Source: a virus. From it: a stretch of DNA of 46,428 nucleotides. This document shows positions 8,344 to 44,855 of this stretch, one piece after another (the first letter of the stretch is position 1; every line of letters starts with the position of its first letter). Both the position numbers and the translations under genes were made by a program. Where the stretch lies: positions 1 through 46,428 of IMG/VR virus record IMGVR_UViG_3300036790_000070; one strand, 5' to 3'. The notes beneath the pieces are model-generated. The model did not search any database. It was not told where the DNA came from and was given only the letters and a program-made list of their open reading frames with translations.

Positions 8344-8667
8344 TCAGTCTAGCAGAGGGTCATGCTCCGGCTCAACATCGGTGTATACCTGGAGTGCGAG
8401 GCGCGGCAAGGGGGCGGCCATGATCTGCGCTTCGATCTCCTCGTCGGAGAGCGCGGCTAGCTGCCGCTGCATCTGTCTATTCGCCGGCACTTGGATGATG
8501 GAGTTGACCGGCTTGCCGTGGCCCCGGTCCAGGAGTGCATTCGCCGCGGCGATCCGATCGCGATCCTCCGCGCACCAATCGTTCATCACGTTCGCGATGG
8601 TCTTAATCGCCCGTTCGGTGTGCTCGCGGGCGAGGTTGTCGGCGGCGCGGTAGAGCGTGCCCTTCAC
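8344..8667 (-). CDS. Probable small terminase subunit
   Basis: A 107-aa protein starting at GTG 8667, which overlaps the stop of the PagL-like gene by four bases (GTGA). The segment LAREHTERAIKTIANVMNDW followed by RIAAANALLDRGHGKPVNSI is an all-helical pattern often seen in short proteins encoded just before large terminases. The C-terminus (SDEEIEAQIMAA) is acidic and helical. As small terminase it would recognise phage DNA and load the packaging motor. The assignment rests mainly on gene order and the ALLDRGxGKP pattern; no obvious HTH is present. A longer reading in the same frame exists but lies over the PagL-like gene. Confidence 0.6.
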   Translation of the reverse strand: MKGTLYRAADNLAREHTERAIKTIANVMNDWCAEDRDRIAAANALLDRGHGKPVNSIIQVPANRQMQRQLAALSDEEIEAQIMAAPLPRLALQVYTDVEPEHDPLLD

Positions 8668-9179
8668 TGGAGCTTGTACTCCAGCATTAGGGCCTGGCGC
8701 CCTACGTTCGGCGAGGACGTGCCGGCATCCGAGATGTGCGCAAGGTTCAGCCGCAGTCGCTTGGTGAGATGGAACTCGAAACCAAGGTGGAAGTTTGTGT
8801 GGGCACCGTTGATTGCGTCCACTCGCTGAACGAAAGCTGGACCGATATAGGCGCATACAAACGAACGGCACGTTTCGATTCCGGCGTGCCAGTCCCAATT
8901 GTTGGGGACGTTGGCTCCGTGATACGTCGTAGAGCCCCAAAGATCGGTTCCCCCGAAAACATACAGTCCGGGGTTTTCTGATAGCTCATGCTTCACTTCC
9001 AATCCGAGTGTGGGGCCGTAGCCCTCTGTGCCGAACGATGAACCAACCTCCACATCAACCTCGGCCGCATGGCAGCGGGCGAAGAGCGCGCAGAGGATCA
9101 CGATGAACGCGAAGATGCCGACGGTGGCGGCGCGGCCGTTGCCGACGAGCTGACGAATATAGGCCCACGCACTTTGCAT
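8664..9179 (-). CDS. PagL-like lipid A 3-O-deacylase / outer-membrane barrel protein
   Basis: A 171-aa protein with an N-terminal export signal (a basic start, hydrophobic core ATVGIFAFIVILCALF, then ARCHA before AEVDVEVG). The mature part alternates polar and hydrophobic residues with many aromatics, as in an eight-stranded outer-membrane barrel. Near the C-terminus RLNLAHISDAGTSSPNVG matches the PagL signature HxSNAG, with catalytic-type His and Ser conserved and Asn replaced by Asp. It ends with aromatic-rich MLEYKLQ like barrel proteins. PagL removes the 3-O acyl chain from lipid A. Start at 9179 is fixed by CAGGAG seven bases upstream. It is the first gene of the late unit. The Asn-to-Asp change leaves activity uncertain; an inert receptor-masking barrel is the main alternative. 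Confidence 0.65.
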   Translation of the reverse strand: MQSAWAYIRQLVGNGRAATVGIFAFIVILCALFARCHAAEVDVEVGSSFGTEGYGPTLGLEVKHELSENPGLYVFGGTDLWGSTTYHGANVPNNWDWHAGIETCRSFVCAYIGPAFVQRVDAINGAHTNFHLGFEFHLTKRLRLNLAHISDAGTSSPNVGRQALMLEYKLQ

Positions 9180-9252
9180 TTCGAGACTCCTGGTTGGGTC
9201 CCCCGGAAATATACAGGGGGTGGGTCGCCAATAGCAACTCGAATGGGTCCCT

Positions 9253-9267
9253 CGCAATTAGCATGCC
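9253..9267. repeat. 15-bp direct repeat, copy 1
   Basis: CGCAATTAGCATGCC at this position recurs at 9482..9496 as CGCAATTAGCGTGCC (14/15 identical). The copies bracket the GC-rich left part of the control region, 229 bases apart. They may be protein-binding sites or traces of duplication. Confidence 0.6.
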
Positions 9268-9481
9268 TGATCGTCTCCCGGGCCTAGCATGTTTCATGCC
9301 GCTAAAAGCATGCCGCGGATAGCCGTTGAGGTTGCAACAAAGCGCCCCGCCGCTACTGGCGTCATGGGTCCCCCGAAAGGGCCTCTCACCCCCTTCCCTC
9401 ACTTCCAGCGTAATGCGGCGTGCCCATCCCGGCGCGCAACACACCCATCCAGGAGCAGGGCGCGATTGGTGCGATGCGATA

Positions 9482-9496
9482 CGCAATTAGCGTGCC
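9482..9496. repeat. 15-bp direct repeat, copy 2
   Basis: Second copy (CGCAATTAGCGTGCC) of the repeat at 9253..9267, ten bases before the first TTAGACA site. Confidence 0.6.
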
Positions 9497-9505
9497 AAAC
9501 AGCGA

Positions 9506-9961
9506 TTTAGACATGCGTTATGTAGTGTCTAAAGTTTTGTCTAAGTGTAAGCCATTGATCGGCTTGCCGAAAAATGCCCTTTAGACAACTTAGACACTTT
9601 AGACACTTAAAATATACCTATCCCATGCAGGTGCGCGCACACGCACATGCGCGCACGCACACATGCGCACGCACACACGCAATACCGGGTTGACTTTTGA
9701 CCGTCCAATCTGTCTAAAGTGTCTAAAAGTATTTTTTCGCTATACGAATCATCGACTTGCACTTAGACACTTATTTAGACACCTCGTGTAAAAACACCTA
9801 AAAGTGTTAAATAGTTTGTCTAAAACGAATACAGTTCTTGCATATTTGGAACTATTCCATGTAATATCGCTCGGTTTCACCAACCAGGAGCTGCCATGAA
9901 CGATAATGTAGGCTACGACATCCGCACCGAGATCCAATCTGCAACCGAGAATTTGTCTAAA
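9506..9961. repeat. Array of twelve TTAGACA sites with dyad organisation
   Basis: TTAGACA (or its complement TGTCTAA), mostly with an extra flanking T/A, occurs at 9506, 9526, 9538, 9580, 9589, 9598, 9711, 9720, 9762, 9774, 9817 and 9954. In order the orientations are: forward; reverse, reverse; forward x3; reverse x2; forward x2; reverse; reverse. Within groups the spacing is 12 (9526/9538), 9 and 9 (9580/9589/9598), 9 (9711/9720) and 12 bases (9762/9774), so the left and right halves mirror each other about a centre near 9654-9658. The last site is inside the coding sequence of 9896..10321. This is typical of cooperative protein-binding sites or iterons. Confidence 0.88.
9631..9681. repeat. 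51-base alternating purine-pyrimidine tract (Z-DNA potential)
   Basis: Every base from 9631 to 9681 alternates purine and pyrimidine, made of GC, AC, GT and AT steps (for example GTGCGCGCACACGCACATGC at its start). Such tracts can adopt left-handed Z-DNA under negative supercoiling. Its centre (9656) coincides with the symmetry centre of the TTAGACA array, and AT-rich AAAATATACC lies just to its left. Confidence 0.85.
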
Positions 9962-10321
9962 GAAGTACGTAGGCGCTTCCGGAGCCGCGCGATACGTGCC
10001 GTCGTCCGCCAGAACGAGCATGTGTCTCTGGACAAAATCACTCCGCTATTCGATATCTCCAGGGCCACCTACTACAACCTGATGGCCGAACTCGAAGCGT
10101 GGGAAGAGAAGCAATCAGGCGACACTGAGGCGCGCGAGATATCCACCCTTGGTATGTACCGTGGCAGCGTGTGGAAACTCGTCTCGGGCCGGCTCCTGCT
10201 GGCGTATGCCAGGAATCTGCTCGACTCCGAGACTGAAGCCCTCATCGAAAGGCGCAACGCGGAATGCGACACCCTATTAGACGTGGCGCCGGAACGGATA
10301 GTAGATCCGCTATTGCAATAG
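9896..10321 (+). CDS. First early gene: putative HTH DNA-binding protein
   Basis: A 141-aa protein with a basic N-terminal region (EVRRRFRSRAIRAVVRQNEH) and a possible helix-turn-helix at about residues 44-64 (VSLDKITPLFDISRATYYNL, where DISRATYYNL would be the recognition helix). The second half is helical and acidic. Start at 9896 follows CCAGGAG six bases upstream. It is the first gene rightward of the control region, and its codons 20-22 contain a TTAGACA-type site, so autoregulation or a role as the site-binding protein is an attractive inference. I do not recognise a specific family. The left arm of the 52-bp inverted repeat begins seven bases after its stop. Confidence 0.75.
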   Translation: MNDNVGYDIRTEIQSATENLSKEVRRRFRSRAIRAVVRQNEHVSLDKITPLFDISRATYYNLMAELEAWEEKQSGDTEAREISTLGMYRGSVWKLVSGRLLLAYARNLLDSETEALIERRNAECDTLLDVAPERIVDPLLQ

Positions 10322-10383: not shown

Positions 10384-10433
10384 TGACAATTTGTGTCACT
10401 TTGTGACCGTCACATTGTGACCAGAATTGTCAC
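10384..10433. promoter_or_regulatory. Tandem GTCAC/GTGAC dyads (operator-like)
   Basis: Two adjacent 13-bp palindromes, GTCACTTTGTGAC (10395..10407) and GTCACATTGTGAC (10409..10421), form a 14-bp tandem repeat. They are preceded by TGACA-ATTTG-TGTCA (10384..10398) and followed by a half-site GTCACC (10429..10434). Regularly phased short dyads of this kind are typical repressor sites. They lie 115-150 bases upstream of 10536 and just inside the left arm of the inverted repeat. The Cro-like protein at 15765..15989 or the protein at 9896..10321 are possible binders. Confidence 0.65.
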
Positions 10434-10535
10434 CGTGCGGCGCGTCAAGAGCTAGCCAGCCTGCCAGTTGACCGATTCGCCGGTGGCACGGCCCGTGCAT
10501 ATACCTAATTGTCAGCAACAAACCGGAGATTTCAA

Positions 10536-15589: not shown

Positions 15590-15820
15590 ATGCCCCGAGG
15601 CGCGAAGCCCCACCACAAGCACTCGCAAAAACGCACGCACTGCAAGCGTGGGCACGCGCTGACTGATGCCAATGTCTATGTCAGCGGCCCGAGCCGCAAG
15701 TGTCGTGCTTGCGCATTGATGCGCGCAAGCGCTACACTTCGCCCCTTAACGATAGGAGTTCCACGTGTCCAAATCCAATCAGGTCATCAAGCGATGGCTA
15801 AAGCAAGTCACCCCCGATGA
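15590..15820 (+). CDS. Small zinc-finger-like protein
   Basis: A 76-aa basic protein with CKRGHALTDANVYV and then GPSRKCRACALMR. This C-x3-H ... C-x2-C pattern occurs as a small zinc knuckle in phage HNH-associated and DNA-binding proteins, but the HNH catalytic residues themselves are absent. ATG 15590 lacks a good ribosome site; a TTG at 15566 overlapping the previous stop is an alternative start. Its end overlaps the next gene by 56 bases in another frame. Confidence 0.5.
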   Translation: MPRGAKPHHKHSQKRTHCKRGHALTDANVYVSGPSRKCRACALMRASATLRPLTIGVPRVQIQSGHQAMAKASHPR

Positions 15821-15989
15821 AGCTCGCAAAGCCGCCCAGATCGCCAAGACCTCAGTGGCACACCTTCGCCACATTGCCGCTGGCCGGCGCGGCATGACAG
15901 CCGAGATGGCGCAGCGCGTAGCGCACGCCACCGGCCTCAAACAAAAGGATCTCTGCGCAGCCTGCGCGGCCTGTCCGATAGCCAAGTGA
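15765..15989 (+). CDS. Cro/YdaS-like transcriptional regulator
   Basis: A 74-aa protein with the helix-turn-helix arrangement of small Cro-type repressors: VTPDEARKAAQIAKTSVAHL followed by RHIAAGRRGMTAEMAQRVAH and ATGL. 'A..A..s...LR.IA.G.R..t.e.A.rv..aTG' is the usual pattern for this group. It ends CAACAACPIAK, with four Cys in all. GTG 15765 is preceded by TAGGAG. A regulator immediately upstream of the replication genes suggests control of its own unit; the dyads at 10384..10433 and 14527..14544 are possible targets. No CI partner or integrase is present. Confidence 0.7.
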   Translation: MSKSNQVIKRWLKQVTPDEARKAAQIAKTSVAHLRHIAAGRRGMTAEMAQRVAHATGLKQKDLCAACAACPIAK

Positions 15990-18133
15990 CCGAGTTCGAA
16001 GAATACGTCGCGGAGGGCTGGAAGCTCTGCGCGATCGAGCGCGGGCAGAAACTGCCCCACTACCTCAAGTGGAACGTCAAGCCGATCCCCGACGATGCGG
16101 TAGGCGGCTTGGAGGGCGCGGGGCTATTGCACGCTCTTAGCGGAACGTGCGCGTTGGACCTTGATAATTTGGAATTAGCAAGACCATGGCTCGCGGAGAG
16201 AGGAGTTGATGTAGATGTACTTCTGTCTGACGTATCGGCAGTGCGTATCGATTCTGGGCGCGACGGCCGTGCCAAATTGCTCTATACCATGCGGAGGCCC
16301 CTGCGTACGCTTAAGCCATCTGGGAGTGGTTGTGAACTACGTTGCGCAACGGCAAGCGGAACTTCAACGCAAGACGTTCTTCCCCCTACGGTCCATCCAG
16401 TAACGAAGCGCCCTTATCAGTGGCTTTACCCCGAGCCCCTTATCGGAGATTGGCGAAACCTCCCACCAATCCCGGCGGCGCTACTCGCGTGCTGGCGCTC
16501 GCTGATCGCTGATGGCGAAGACGCACCCGCTATACCCAAGGCTGACAATGCACCGAAAACCCCGCTCGACAAGCTCCGCAAAGCCGCGTTCCGCCATGAC
16601 CCAGACTGCGAGTATGACGAGTGGATCAAAGTCGGCATGCAATTGCACGACGGTACGGGCGGCGCGCAGGAGGGCTTCGATATCTGGGAAGAATGGTCGC
16701 AAGGCATCAAGCGCGCCGCATATCCCGGCGAAGTGGTGCTCAAAAGCCATTGGCTATCGTTCGGTGCTGGCAGTGGAAAGCACCTTGCGTCGGGTGAGTC
16801 GCTTGCAGCAGAGCTACCAGCGGAAGCTGAAGACTTCCCCATCGAAGAGCCCGACCAGGAGCCGGCCACGGCCAACGGCAAAGAACTAGAGCGGAAGAAT
16901 GCGCTCGATGCGTTGATACAGCGCTTCGTCTTCGTCATCTGGGAGCAGGAGTATTTCGACACCGAGCGTAACGTCATCATCGGTGACAAAGCTATTCGGC
17001 ATTTGCTCACGCCCTACATGCCGCGGAAAAGCGGCAAAGAAATCGATCCGATAGACAAGCTGATGCGCTCGAAGCAGAAGGATGCGGTAGAGGCACTCGC
17101 GTTCCATCCCGGCGAGAAGCCGATATTCACCTACAACAGGAGGCGCTATGCGAACACTTACTACAACCAAGCGCCGGAGCCGCTCGAACCGACAGCCGAA
17201 GAGCTTGAGAAAATCAATTGGCTCTTCGACCGCATCGACGATCCGATGTACCGCGAATGGCTCCAACAGTTCTACGCGCACATGGTGCAACAACCGGGCA
17301 CCAAGATTCGAAGCGCTCCACTAATCTGGTCGAGGACTCAAGGCAATGGCAAATCTACGCTCGTGGGCACGATACCTAAGCTGCTTGTTTCAGAGGCATA
17401 CTACGTGGAAGTTACCAGTGGAATGCTCAATTCAGATCACAACGACTACCTTATCGGCAAATGGCACGTCACCCTTGCTGAGTTTAGAGCCGGAACTCGG
17501 GGAGAGCGTGAATCTATTAGTAAAAAAGTCGAGAACTGGATCGCTGACGATGTATTGTCGATCCACCCCAAGGGTACTAAAGGTTATTCAATCCCAAATC
17601 ATCTAATTGTCACGGCGAGCACCAACAAAGAAGACGCGGCGAGCATAGACGAGAACGATCGCAAGTGGGCGATCCACGAGCTGCACGCGCCGAAGATGAC
17701 GGCAAGCGAAAAGCTCTGGCTCTTTCGTGATTATCTCAACGGCCCGCGCGCCGCGGCGACGCTACGTCATTACTTCACGCACTTACCGCTCGGCAATTTC
17801 GATGCGAATGCCGATGCGCCGCGCACAGCGGCGCGCGCCGCGATGATCGATGCGTCCGCCTCTGGCGACTTCGAGCTATTGCAGCGTGCTTGGGAGGAAC
17901 GCTCCGAGCCGCTCGCGAAGAACGTGGTGATTACGGGCGAAGTCGCCGATTATGTGCGCATCCACAGTCCGGTAAAACCCTCCAACGACCGCATTGGCAA
18001 GCTTCTTGCAGTCCCCCCGTTCAATGGCAGCGCGATCAAGTTTCACCTCGGCGAATCTTGGTACCGTGCCGCGGTGTTGCGCGGACCAGGGCGGAAGCAT
18101 ATTCGAGGTGATGATATTGACTTGATTGCCTGA
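15986..18133 (+). CDS. Primase-helicase (PriCT-type and SF3-like ATPase domains)
   Basis: A 715-aa replication protein. The N-terminal 190 residues resemble the primase/polymerase-like domain (LHALSGTCALDLDNLELARP has the acidic strand; VSAVRIDSGRDGRAKLLYT follows). Residues 200-240 (FRHDPDCEYDEWIKVGMQLH) match the primase C-terminal 2 (PriCT-2) helix bundle. The helicase part starts near 420; Walker A SRTQGNGKST is at about 450 and NHLIVTASTNKEDAA at about 540 is the sensor-1-type strand of viral superfamily 3 helicases. It would unwind the fork and prime lagging-strand synthesis with the family A polymerase (22823..24895). GTG start overlaps the regulator's stop (GTGA). Confidence 0.85.
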   Translation: MTEFEEYVAEGWKLCAIERGQKLPHYLKWNVKPIPDDAVGGLEGAGLLHALSGTCALDLDNLELARPWLAERGVDVDVLLSDVSAVRIDSGRDGRAKLLYTMRRPLRTLKPSGSGCELRCATASGTSTQDVLPPTVHPVTKRPYQWLYPEPLIGDWRNLPPIPAALLACWRSLIADGEDAPAIPKADNAPKTPLDKLRKAAFRHDPDCEYDEWIKVGMQLHDGTGGAQEGFDIWEEWSQGIKRAAYPGEVVLKSHWLSFGAGSGKHLASGESLAAELPAEAEDFPIEEPDQEPATANGKELERKNALDALIQRFVFVIWEQEYFDTERNVIIGDKAIRHLLTPYMPRKSGKEIDPIDKLMRSKQKDAVEALAFHPGEKPIFTYNRRRYANTYYNQAPEPLEPTAEELEKINWLFDRIDDPMYREWLQQFYAHMVQQPGTKIRSAPLIWSRTQGNGKSTLVGTIPKLLVSEAYYVEVTSGMLNSDHNDYLIGKWHVTLAEFRAGTRGERESISKKVENWIADDVLSIHPKGTKGYSIPNHLIVTASTNKEDAASIDENDRKWAIHELHAPKMTASEKLWLFRDYLNGPRAAATLRHYFTHLPLGNFDANADAPRTAARAAMIDASASGDFELLQRAWEERSEPLAKNVVITGEVADYVRIHSPVKPSNDRIGKLLAVPPFNGSAIKFHLGESWYRAAVLRGPGRKHIRGDDIDLIA

Positions 18134-20718: not shown

Positions 20719-20882
20719 AAAATTGTGTCGGAACGTATGGCGAGGGCTGCACCGAGCGGCGTCCCGCGGGCAGCCACATCCAATGCACGAAACATCGTGT
20801 AGCATCTGGTGGCTACCTGCGCTACAATCCGCATCCGGCTTCGAAAAGCCGGACACAAAACAGCAGCAACAAGCAGGAGTGA
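20715..20882 (+). CDS. Small Cys/His-containing protein
   Basis: A 55-aa ORF starting MKNCVGTYGEGCTERRPAGS and continuing HIQCTKHR, with C-x7-C-x10-C-x2-H spacing that might bind zinc. It starts by ATGA overlap and its stop lies inside the leader of the single-stranded DNA-binding protein gene (CAGGAGTGA). The coding sequence includes a CCGGCTT/AAGCCGG hairpin. Confidence 0.5.
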   Translation: MKNCVGTYGEGCTERRPAGSHIQCTKHRVASGGYLRYNPHPASKSRTQNSSNKQE

Positions 20883-20884
20883 AT

Positions 20885-21472
20885 ATGCCTTTAGGTAATA
20901 ACGAAATCCGCCTGGAGAACGTGCGACTAGCTTTCCCAAAGCTCTGGACGCCCGAGCCCTTCCCCGGCGGCACTGATCCGACTCCGTACTTCTCCGCAAG
21001 CTTCATTCTTCCCAAAGACCATCCGCAGTGTGCGGCTTTGGACAAGCTGATGAAGGACATTGCAATCGCCAAGTGGGGGCCGCAGAAGGGTCCGCTGATT
21101 CTCAAGTCAGCCAAGGCGATCGGCAAGGTCTTCTACCGCGACGGCGACTCCAAAGCCGAGTACGAGGGTTTCGAGGGCAACATGTTCGTAGCCGCGCGCT
21201 CGAAGACGCGACCGAACACCTTTGACGGCATGCGCAACACGGTCACAGAAGCGGACGGCACCATCTTCGGCGGCTGTTACGTGAACGCGATCATCAGCGC
21301 GTATGCCTACACAAAGGGCAACAATGGACTCGGCGCCGGGCTCAAGGGCGTTCAGTTCAAGCGCAAGGGTGATGCTTTCGGAGGCGGCGGTGCGCCGGCC
21401 GACAGCGAGGACTTCGACGAACTGGGAGCCCCAGACGACGGAGAAAGCGGCGACGATCCGTTAGCCGCGTAG
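20885..21472 (+). CDS. DUF2815 single-stranded DNA-binding protein
   Basis: A 195-aa protein beginning MPLGNNEIRLENVRLAFPKL, typical of DUF2815 and related gp2.5-like single-stranded DNA-binding proteins. The OB-fold-like core includes YFSASFILPKDHPQ, GKVFYRDGDSKAEYEGF, and GCYVNAIISAYAY. The C-terminus is very acidic (SEDFDELGAPDDGESGDDPL), as in proteins that recruit replication partners through an acidic tail. Start at 20885 is fixed by CAGGAG; an upstream in-frame reading to 20723 overlaps the previous gene. It acts with the DUF2800 nuclease, primase-helicase and polymerase. Confidence 0.85.
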   Translation: MPLGNNEIRLENVRLAFPKLWTPEPFPGGTDPTPYFSASFILPKDHPQCAALDKLMKDIAIAKWGPQKGPLILKSAKAIGKVFYRDGDSKAEYEGFEGNMFVAARSKTRPNTFDGMRNTVTEADGTIFGGCYVNAIISAYAYTKGNNGLGAGLKGVQFKRKGDAFGGGGAPADSEDFDELGAPDDGESGDDPLAA

Positions 21473-44447: not shown

Positions 44448-44855
44448 TCAACTCAGCAGGCTGTCGTTGACGGCGGGCTCGTAAGCCTCTCGTCGCGCAC
44501 GTTTGGCGGGTTTGGGAGCTGCCTTCCCTGCCGCAGCCTCGGCCGCTTGCGCGGCGTCAATCAACTTCCTCAACTCGGTCACACCGCGGCGTCCATTGCC
44601 GAACACCGAATTGGCATGTGCAATGCCGCTCTTCGGGTCGGCGCCATACGCCTTCGTCAACCGGGCCAATTCCGCCGTCGCATCGGGGTATTCCGCCGGA
44701 TGGGCGGGCGTCCCTTCGACCTTCACGAACTCATCCGTGGGCTCCACGTTACCTGGATCGAACAGAAACTCCAGGACCGGGATTTCCCAGGGCGGGACGG
44801 CACGGTTATGGACCGTGTTTCCGTCCCGCGTCACTTTCACTATCTCATGTCGCAT
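44448..44855 (-). CDS. Small head protein of unknown function
   Basis: A 135-aa protein beginning MRHEIVKVTRDGNTVHNRAV followed by PPWEIPVLEFLFDPGNVEPT. The middle (ATAELARLTKAYGADPKSGI, FGNGRRGVTELRKLIDAAQA) is helical and the tail Ala/Lys-rich (GKAAPKPAKRARREAYEPAV). Proteins of this type often follow the coat gene in podoviruses. It is the last gene before the terminator. Confidence 0.65.
   Translation of the reverse strand: MRHEIVKVTRDGNTVHNRAVPPWEIPVLEFLFDPGNVEPTDEFVKVEGTPAHPAEYPDATAELARLTKAYGADPKSGIAHANSVFGNGRRGVTELRKLIDAAQAAEAAAGKAAPKPAKRARREAYEPAVNDSLLS

Follow-up and report, generated by a model that had tools for sequence, protein, structure and literature searches.

An iteron array of conserved geometry is a candidate replication origin in an uncultured phage family

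Main

Here we describe an ordered array of short repeats at the early/late gene divide of an uncultured phage, which we favour, with moderate confidence, as an iteron-type phage replication origin, probably a bidirectional one fired by a PrimPol–SF3 primase-helicase. The window, that is, the whole stretch of 46,428 bases analysed, is the IMG/VR virus record IMGVR_UViG_3300036790_000070, a circular-type assembly with an exact 127-base terminal repeat. Within it, the array sits between leftward TerS, TerL and structural genes and rightward early and replication genes. A preliminary description of this DNA, made from the letters alone, had proposed a replication origin, a Z-DNA-prone centre and binding by the 9896–10321 protein; the first of these is now the best-supported reading, backed by conserved geometry, an A+T-rich or (TA)n neighbour, a helicase candidate, a GC-skew minimum and a parallel with P4, whereas the other two are weakened.

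Twelve heptads form a partly mirrored array

Exact counting of TTAGACA and its complement TGTCTAA on both strands returned exactly 12 matches in the window, all within 9507–9960, against a chance expectation of 1.73; none of 100 shuffles reached 12. The preliminary description had likewise reported twelve sites and no copies elsewhere in the genome, and it had correctly placed the array between the divergent early and late units with one site inside the first early gene. Its minus-strand starts are right, but its plus-strand starts are one base low (true starts 9507, 9581, 9590, 9599, 9763 and 9775). The sites, all located by exact count, and the central elements are as follows.

9507..9823, no strand assigned: core iteron array holding 11 of the 12 sites, delimited by exact count and mirror test
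9507..9513, plus strand: outer single site, 9 bases from a late sigma54-type element (9482–9497)
9526..9544, minus strand: left inverted pair (9526, 9538), 12 bases apart
9581..9605, plus strand: left tandem triplet (9581, 9590, 9599), 9-base period
9606..9619, no strand assigned: A+T-rich stretch CTTAAAATATACCT adjoining the triplet, a candidate unwinding element
9631..9681, no strand assigned: strictly alternating purine–pyrimidine tract, 51 bases
9711..9726, minus strand: right tandem pair, 9-base period
9763..9781, plus strand: right inverted pair (9763, 9775), 12 bases apart
9817..9823, minus strand: early-side outer single site
9954..9960, minus strand: twelfth site, within the first early gene (ORF 9896–10321)

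The mirror symmetry that had been described for the whole array holds for part of it. At zero tolerance, 8 of the 12 sites pair with an oppositely oriented partner about position 9653.5, and random arrays (n = 300) never gave more than 6 such sites; the remaining four, namely the outer sites 9507, 9817 and 9954 together with a member of the triplet, lack an exact partner. The mirror order is thus genuine without being complete, and an 88-nt imperfect inverted repeat (70%) spans the array. Spelt as TTAGACA and read in the TerL direction on a 6-base core, with arrowheads giving orientation, the array runs > 41 < 12 < 44 > 9 > 111 < 9 < 9 < 44 > 12 > 18 <. Because spacings were measured on this core, gaps to inverted sites are one base off the heptad values, and the tandem-to-inverted gap of 43 bases on both sides appears as 44.

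The mirror centre falls within the 51-base alternating tract, whose reported limits are exact and which is by far the longest of its kind in the window (next longest, 16). Alternating CA/CG tracts of 33–48 bases, like that of the window, occupy the centres of four relatives (L007, L022, L040 and L048), but three others (L140, L141 and L144) have a (TA)n tract that abuts the tandem iterons and the rest have plain A+T-rich DNA. Z-DNA was accordingly rejected as an essential feature. The position of CTTAAAATATACCT is likewise A+T-rich or (TA)n in relatives, and the property common to the centres, as judged from their sequence, is easy opening rather than Z-DNA.

Relatives keep the layout while the heptad changes

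Relatives were collected by a scan with TerL, which yielded 80 viral loci, and complete relative genomes were also retrieved and compared. At this early/late gene divide, an array is also present in approximately 25 related viral contigs; among the TerL-scan loci with enough upstream sequence, many have it at the same place with another heptad, and complete relatives have one array each wherever it is recognisable. The heptads include TGGGACA (L014, L066), CGGGACA (L030, L031, L064, L051), CGGTACA (L056), AGGAACA (L058), TGAGACA (L022, G003) and AGGCACA (L027/G004), among others, and shorter units occur as TGAACA (L005) and GTTACA (L011). None of these heptads resembles TTGACA, and a reading of TTAGACA as a sigma70 −35 variant was rejected on that ground. 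The closest cultured phages share mainly TerL with the window, and the phage collection searched held no close cultured relative.

The layout kept in relatives is a tandem cluster, then an inverted pair 11–13 bases apart (in 15 of 15 arrays measured), then a single site. The tandem step is 8–9 bases, rarely 10, and the inverted site follows the tandem cluster at a gap of 33–35 or 43–45 bases in 11 of 17 cases, the rest being 37–50 with one of 76. The two gap clusters differ by one helical turn, and in a phase test the distance between tandem cluster and outer pair kept helical phase (R 0.48, p about 0.02). Three examples, read in the TerL direction, are given below.

L066: < 10 < 8 < 75 > 8 > 8 > 44 < 12 < 30 >
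L058: < 9 < 76 > 9 > 9 > 33 < 11 < 31 >
L056: < 8 < 8 < 73 > 9 > 9 > 34 < 12 < 26 >

Among these arrays that of the window comes closest to mirror symmetry, as it has the outer pair on both sides. In the window, L022 and L011, the iterons point the other way with respect to the centre than they do in most relatives, which counts against the origin reading; the sites are close to TG-N3-CA, so that strand naming is ambiguous. Loss of spacing in relatives had been named beforehand as an outcome that would speak against the array, and spacing proved to be conserved. Because relatives keep the layout while spelling the sites differently, the sequence comparison identifies the layout itself as the conserved signal. 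The clearest case is G003 (L148) compared with L131/L028, in which all heptads have been replaced together and the unique spacers are conserved.

Tandem and inverted short repeats of fast-changing sequence are also characteristic of incompatibility determinants, and the array resembles them in these respects. That an episomal phage uses the array for partition or incompatibility (parS/ParR-type or plasmid-like iterons) is nevertheless very improbable: the proteins scanned, a subset of the ORFs, included no recognisable partition gene, and we found no evidence of lysogeny.

A primase-helicase accompanies the array

Two replication proteins are encoded in the rightward unit.

15986..18133, plus strand: PrimPol–PriCT2–SF3 (DUF5906/VapE-like) primase-helicase with a C-terminal winged helix, the proposed initiator
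20723..21472, plus strand: Enc34-type ssDNA-binding protein, start codon uncertain

The 15986–18133 product matches Pfam Prim-Pol, PriCT_2 and DUF5906, which identifies an SF3/D5-type helicase fused to a primase. In Foldseek searches its AF2 model matched the NrS-1 CTR (6k9c, E 4e-19) and also the SaPI5 primase-helicase (7ola, 7pds). The C-terminal 115 residues form a winged helix in the model (H-E-H-H-E-E, pLDDT about 80–90 over the fold), with weak Foldseek matches for this domain. Primase searches gave few matches with a single-sequence query and more with an alignment query. Directly upstream of the gene lies a small Cro-like HTH protein (15765–15989, plus strand), which among the complete genomes compared has a counterpart in G006 only (46% identical).

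With the same detector, an array was found in none of six TerL relatives that lack the primase-helicase (G010, G011, G012, G032, G033 and G034), whereas most TerL relatives that encode it have one; G005, with a helicase and no recognised array, is the exception. This association is confounded by kinship, because array and helicase are inherited together. Winged helix and heptad did not covary (Mantel r 0.21 across the domain and −0.03 across the recognition helix, with partial values of 0.02 and −0.09). The helicase C termini of G003 and L131 are identical, but their heptads differ. The idea that the recognition helix sets specificity was rejected; an apparent link between His and GGGACA in three genomes failed the Mantel test.

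The same relatives bear on whether the heptads could instead be a cosB- or pac-like region recognised by the terminase, where TerS or a TerS partner would bind to mark the packaging start by the terminase genes. The array does lie upstream of terS–terL, with a separate conserved element, GAGGGACCC, between it and terS, and TerS and the HTH protein described below have a common C-terminal D-x-L-L-x peptide. However, the array is missing from those TerL relatives without the primase-helicase, is kept approximately 4 kb away from TerL in G009, and combines iterons with an A+T centre in a manner not typical of cosB; the GAGGGACCC boxes would be the better cos/pac candidate, as far as sequence can tell. 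We therefore regard a packaging role for the heptads as improbable. In the window, GAGGGACCC occurs at 9196–9203, 9245–9252 and 9366–9373 (minus strand), and most relatives have two or three copies between array and terS (GGGAGCCCCTTTTGAGGGACCC...CGGCGCTTTGTTGCA). An ORF at 8664–9257 (minus strand), between array and TerL, overlaps the TerS reading and has a Pfam match to PagL (lipid A deacylase).

On both sides of the array the genes point away from it, and the two sets meet roughly opposite (approximately 29.8 kb in the window, against an antipode at 32.9 kb). In six genomes, the window, G001, G002, G003, G006 and G009, detrended GC skew reaches its minimum no more than about 1.6 kb from the array; the cumulative-skew check suggested in the preliminary description thus places the minimum at the array, although gene orientation alone could produce the same pattern.

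An adjacent HTH-like protein and sigma54-type elements

The position of the array between divergent units also speaks for an operator, and three nearby elements bear on that reading.

9482..9497, minus strand: sigma54-type −24/−12 element TGGCACGCTAATTGCG directed toward the late genes, a TGGCAYG-N4-TTGC match
9896..10321, plus strand: first early gene, encoding a 141-aa helix-turn-helix-like protein that ends in DPLLQ
10484..10499, plus strand: sigma54-type element TGGCACGGCCCGTGCA preceding early gene 2, a TGGCAYG-N4-TTGC match

TGGCAYG-N4-TTGC fits the layout of the sigma54 −24/−12 consensus. Across 53 non-redundant loci it gave 49 matches at the 4-base spacer and 0–1 at each of the other spacer lengths between 0 and 12, an unexpected and strong enrichment near the arrays. 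Such elements also lie upstream of TerL in L005, L014, L028, L050–L060 and others, some of them in closely spaced convergent pairs; in the literature searched, we found none on sigma54-driven phage genes. A palindromic GTCACA/TGTGAC operator-like block precedes early gene 2 (10384–10432) and is repeated in G002, G004 and G017, adjoining sigma54-type elements. Because sigma54-type elements adjoin the array, the role in bidirectional transcription that had also been suggested for it is possible.

In its fullest form, the operator or enhancer reading would have the 141-aa protein, or a non-homologous HTH substitute in relatives, bind the heptads and switch divergent early and late promoters, some of them sigma54-like. 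In many relatives the first divergent gene is indeed a small one of HTH type whose product has a D-x-L-L-x tail, and only 9 bases separate site 9507 from the late sigma54-type element. The arrays of L022, L048, L016 and L028/G003 have homologues of the 141-aa protein encoded beside them, and L011 has one in the same record. Homologues are absent, however, from the complete array-bearing genomes G001, G002, G004 and G006 and the near-complete G007, and many relatives have no recognised HTH gene beside the array. DNA and protein searches of phages and viral contigs gave no match to the protein. As it is missing from many array-bearing genomes, we rejected it as a universal reader. The comparison of G003 with L131/L028, where the middle of the HTH gene has diverged and both its ends are conserved while the helicase C terminus is unchanged, favours the HTH protein as the heptad reader, but because L131 and G003 are mosaic elsewhere too, this divergence is not unique. 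The outer spacing and the A+T or (TA)n neighbours suit an origin better, and we consider the operator reading unlikely, though it is the main rival. A compromise may be that a universal initiator reads a short core plus spacing, that the array is homogenised within each genome, and that the HTH protein, where present, is an extra regulator.

At its start the G003 contig has AAGCAGTGGTATCAACGCAGAGTAC, which is a cDNA/template-switch adaptor sequence, and its HTH gene contains apparent frameshifts. In the window, a C-terminal D-[PSDE]-L-L-x peptide is found on ORFs 8344–8940 (minus strand), 9896–10321 (plus strand) and 44448–44855 (minus strand). It is common to TerS (in most relatives), the HTH protein and a capsid-adjacent protein, and in relatives it also occurs on SSB, primase-helicase and small early proteins; its sharing suggests a common binding partner.

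Comparison with characterized origins

The alpha protein of satellite phage P4, which binds the type I iterons of the P4 replicator (ori plus crr), is a primase-helicase initiator with a C-terminal origin-binding winged helix. With the P4 iteron GGTGAACA taken as forward, the ori type 1 repeats of the annotated P4 replicator read as follows.

crr sites: < 9 < 43 > 18 > 14 < (twice)
ori sites: > 10 > 11 > 22 < 43 > 10 >

The late-side half of the window array, < 9 < 9 < 44 > 12 > 18 < in the TerL direction, is near P4 crr in both spacing and polarity. Common to the two are short iterons ending in ACA, direct and inverted, with a tandem step of 9–11 bases, a gap of approximately 43 bases to the inverted site, a re-inverted single site and A+T-rich DNA by the tandem iterons; in P4, TTTTTTATTAA directly precedes tandem GGTGAACA. 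The two systems differ in that GGTGAACA and TTAGACA have only the final ACA in common (the heptad itself varying among the relatives of the window), P4 has separate ori and crr where the window has a single array, and the window initiator has a PrimPol rather than the primase domain of alpha. Comparison of P4 alpha with the window initiator by hhalign gave a probability of 1.2% and an E value of 0.046, in the P-loop region only, and profile comparison of the helicase C-terminal domain with alpha gave no match; sequence homology to alpha was rejected. Because the initiators have no detectable sequence homology, the likeness to P4 is one of working alike, not of membership.

SV40 and papillomavirus origins load two SF3 hexamers at short, inverted binding sites that adjoin A+T DNA, and their initiators bind DNA through an N-terminal domain; we claim no relationship between these and the window initiator. 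Loading of this type has been compared with that by SaPI Rep, which, like Cch2, binds short iterons via its C-terminal domain and apparently acts as two hexamers (PMC7581432). The window resembles SaPI Rep/PriRep and SCCmec Cch2 in the helicase fold match to SaPI5, the short iterons and the putative C-terminal DNA-binding domain, but SaPI origins lie directly downstream of the helicase gene, whereas the window array is 6.2 kb upstream of it, at the early/late divide. Among solved structures, the NrS-1 phage polymerase, a PrimPol-helicase, comes nearest in both sequence and fold; in place of an iteron array, NrS-1 has an 8-nt recognition sequence in just two copies, which is a priming site (PMC7102993).

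Discussion

From the layout of the array and the fold of the helicase, we infer how a putative initiator would act on an origin of this kind. Two clusters of short iterons in opposite orientation would flank an easily opened centre, formed in the window phage by the alternating CA/CG tract and a TATA-like stretch. The initiator, most likely the PrimPol–SF3 primase-helicase acting through its C-terminal winged helix, would bind the iterons, assemble as two oppositely directed hexamers and melt the centre, and forks would then set out in both directions, to the right through the early genes and to the left through the late ones. Because the outer sites lie by or within the divergent promoter regions, binding of the initiator could additionally adjust early and late transcription. 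A stronger version, which we think doubtful, is that the region couples replication to expression: early and late promoters would be sigma54-dependent, the iteron-bound initiator would sit by the −24/−12 elements, firing would act as an on/off switch for late transcription, and the iteron alphabet would be free to change while the geometry is kept. The sigma54-type elements near the array, if they are real promoters, would be unusual for phages.

The array supplies a candidate origin for an uncultured phage family, one in which a spacing grammar is kept across genomes while every iteron changes together. It may thereby separate what the initiator complex reads, the layout and a short core, from what drifts, and the P4-like spacing, in phages whose initiator is unrelated in sequence, suggests that the loading of SF3 helicases follows shared mechanical rules.
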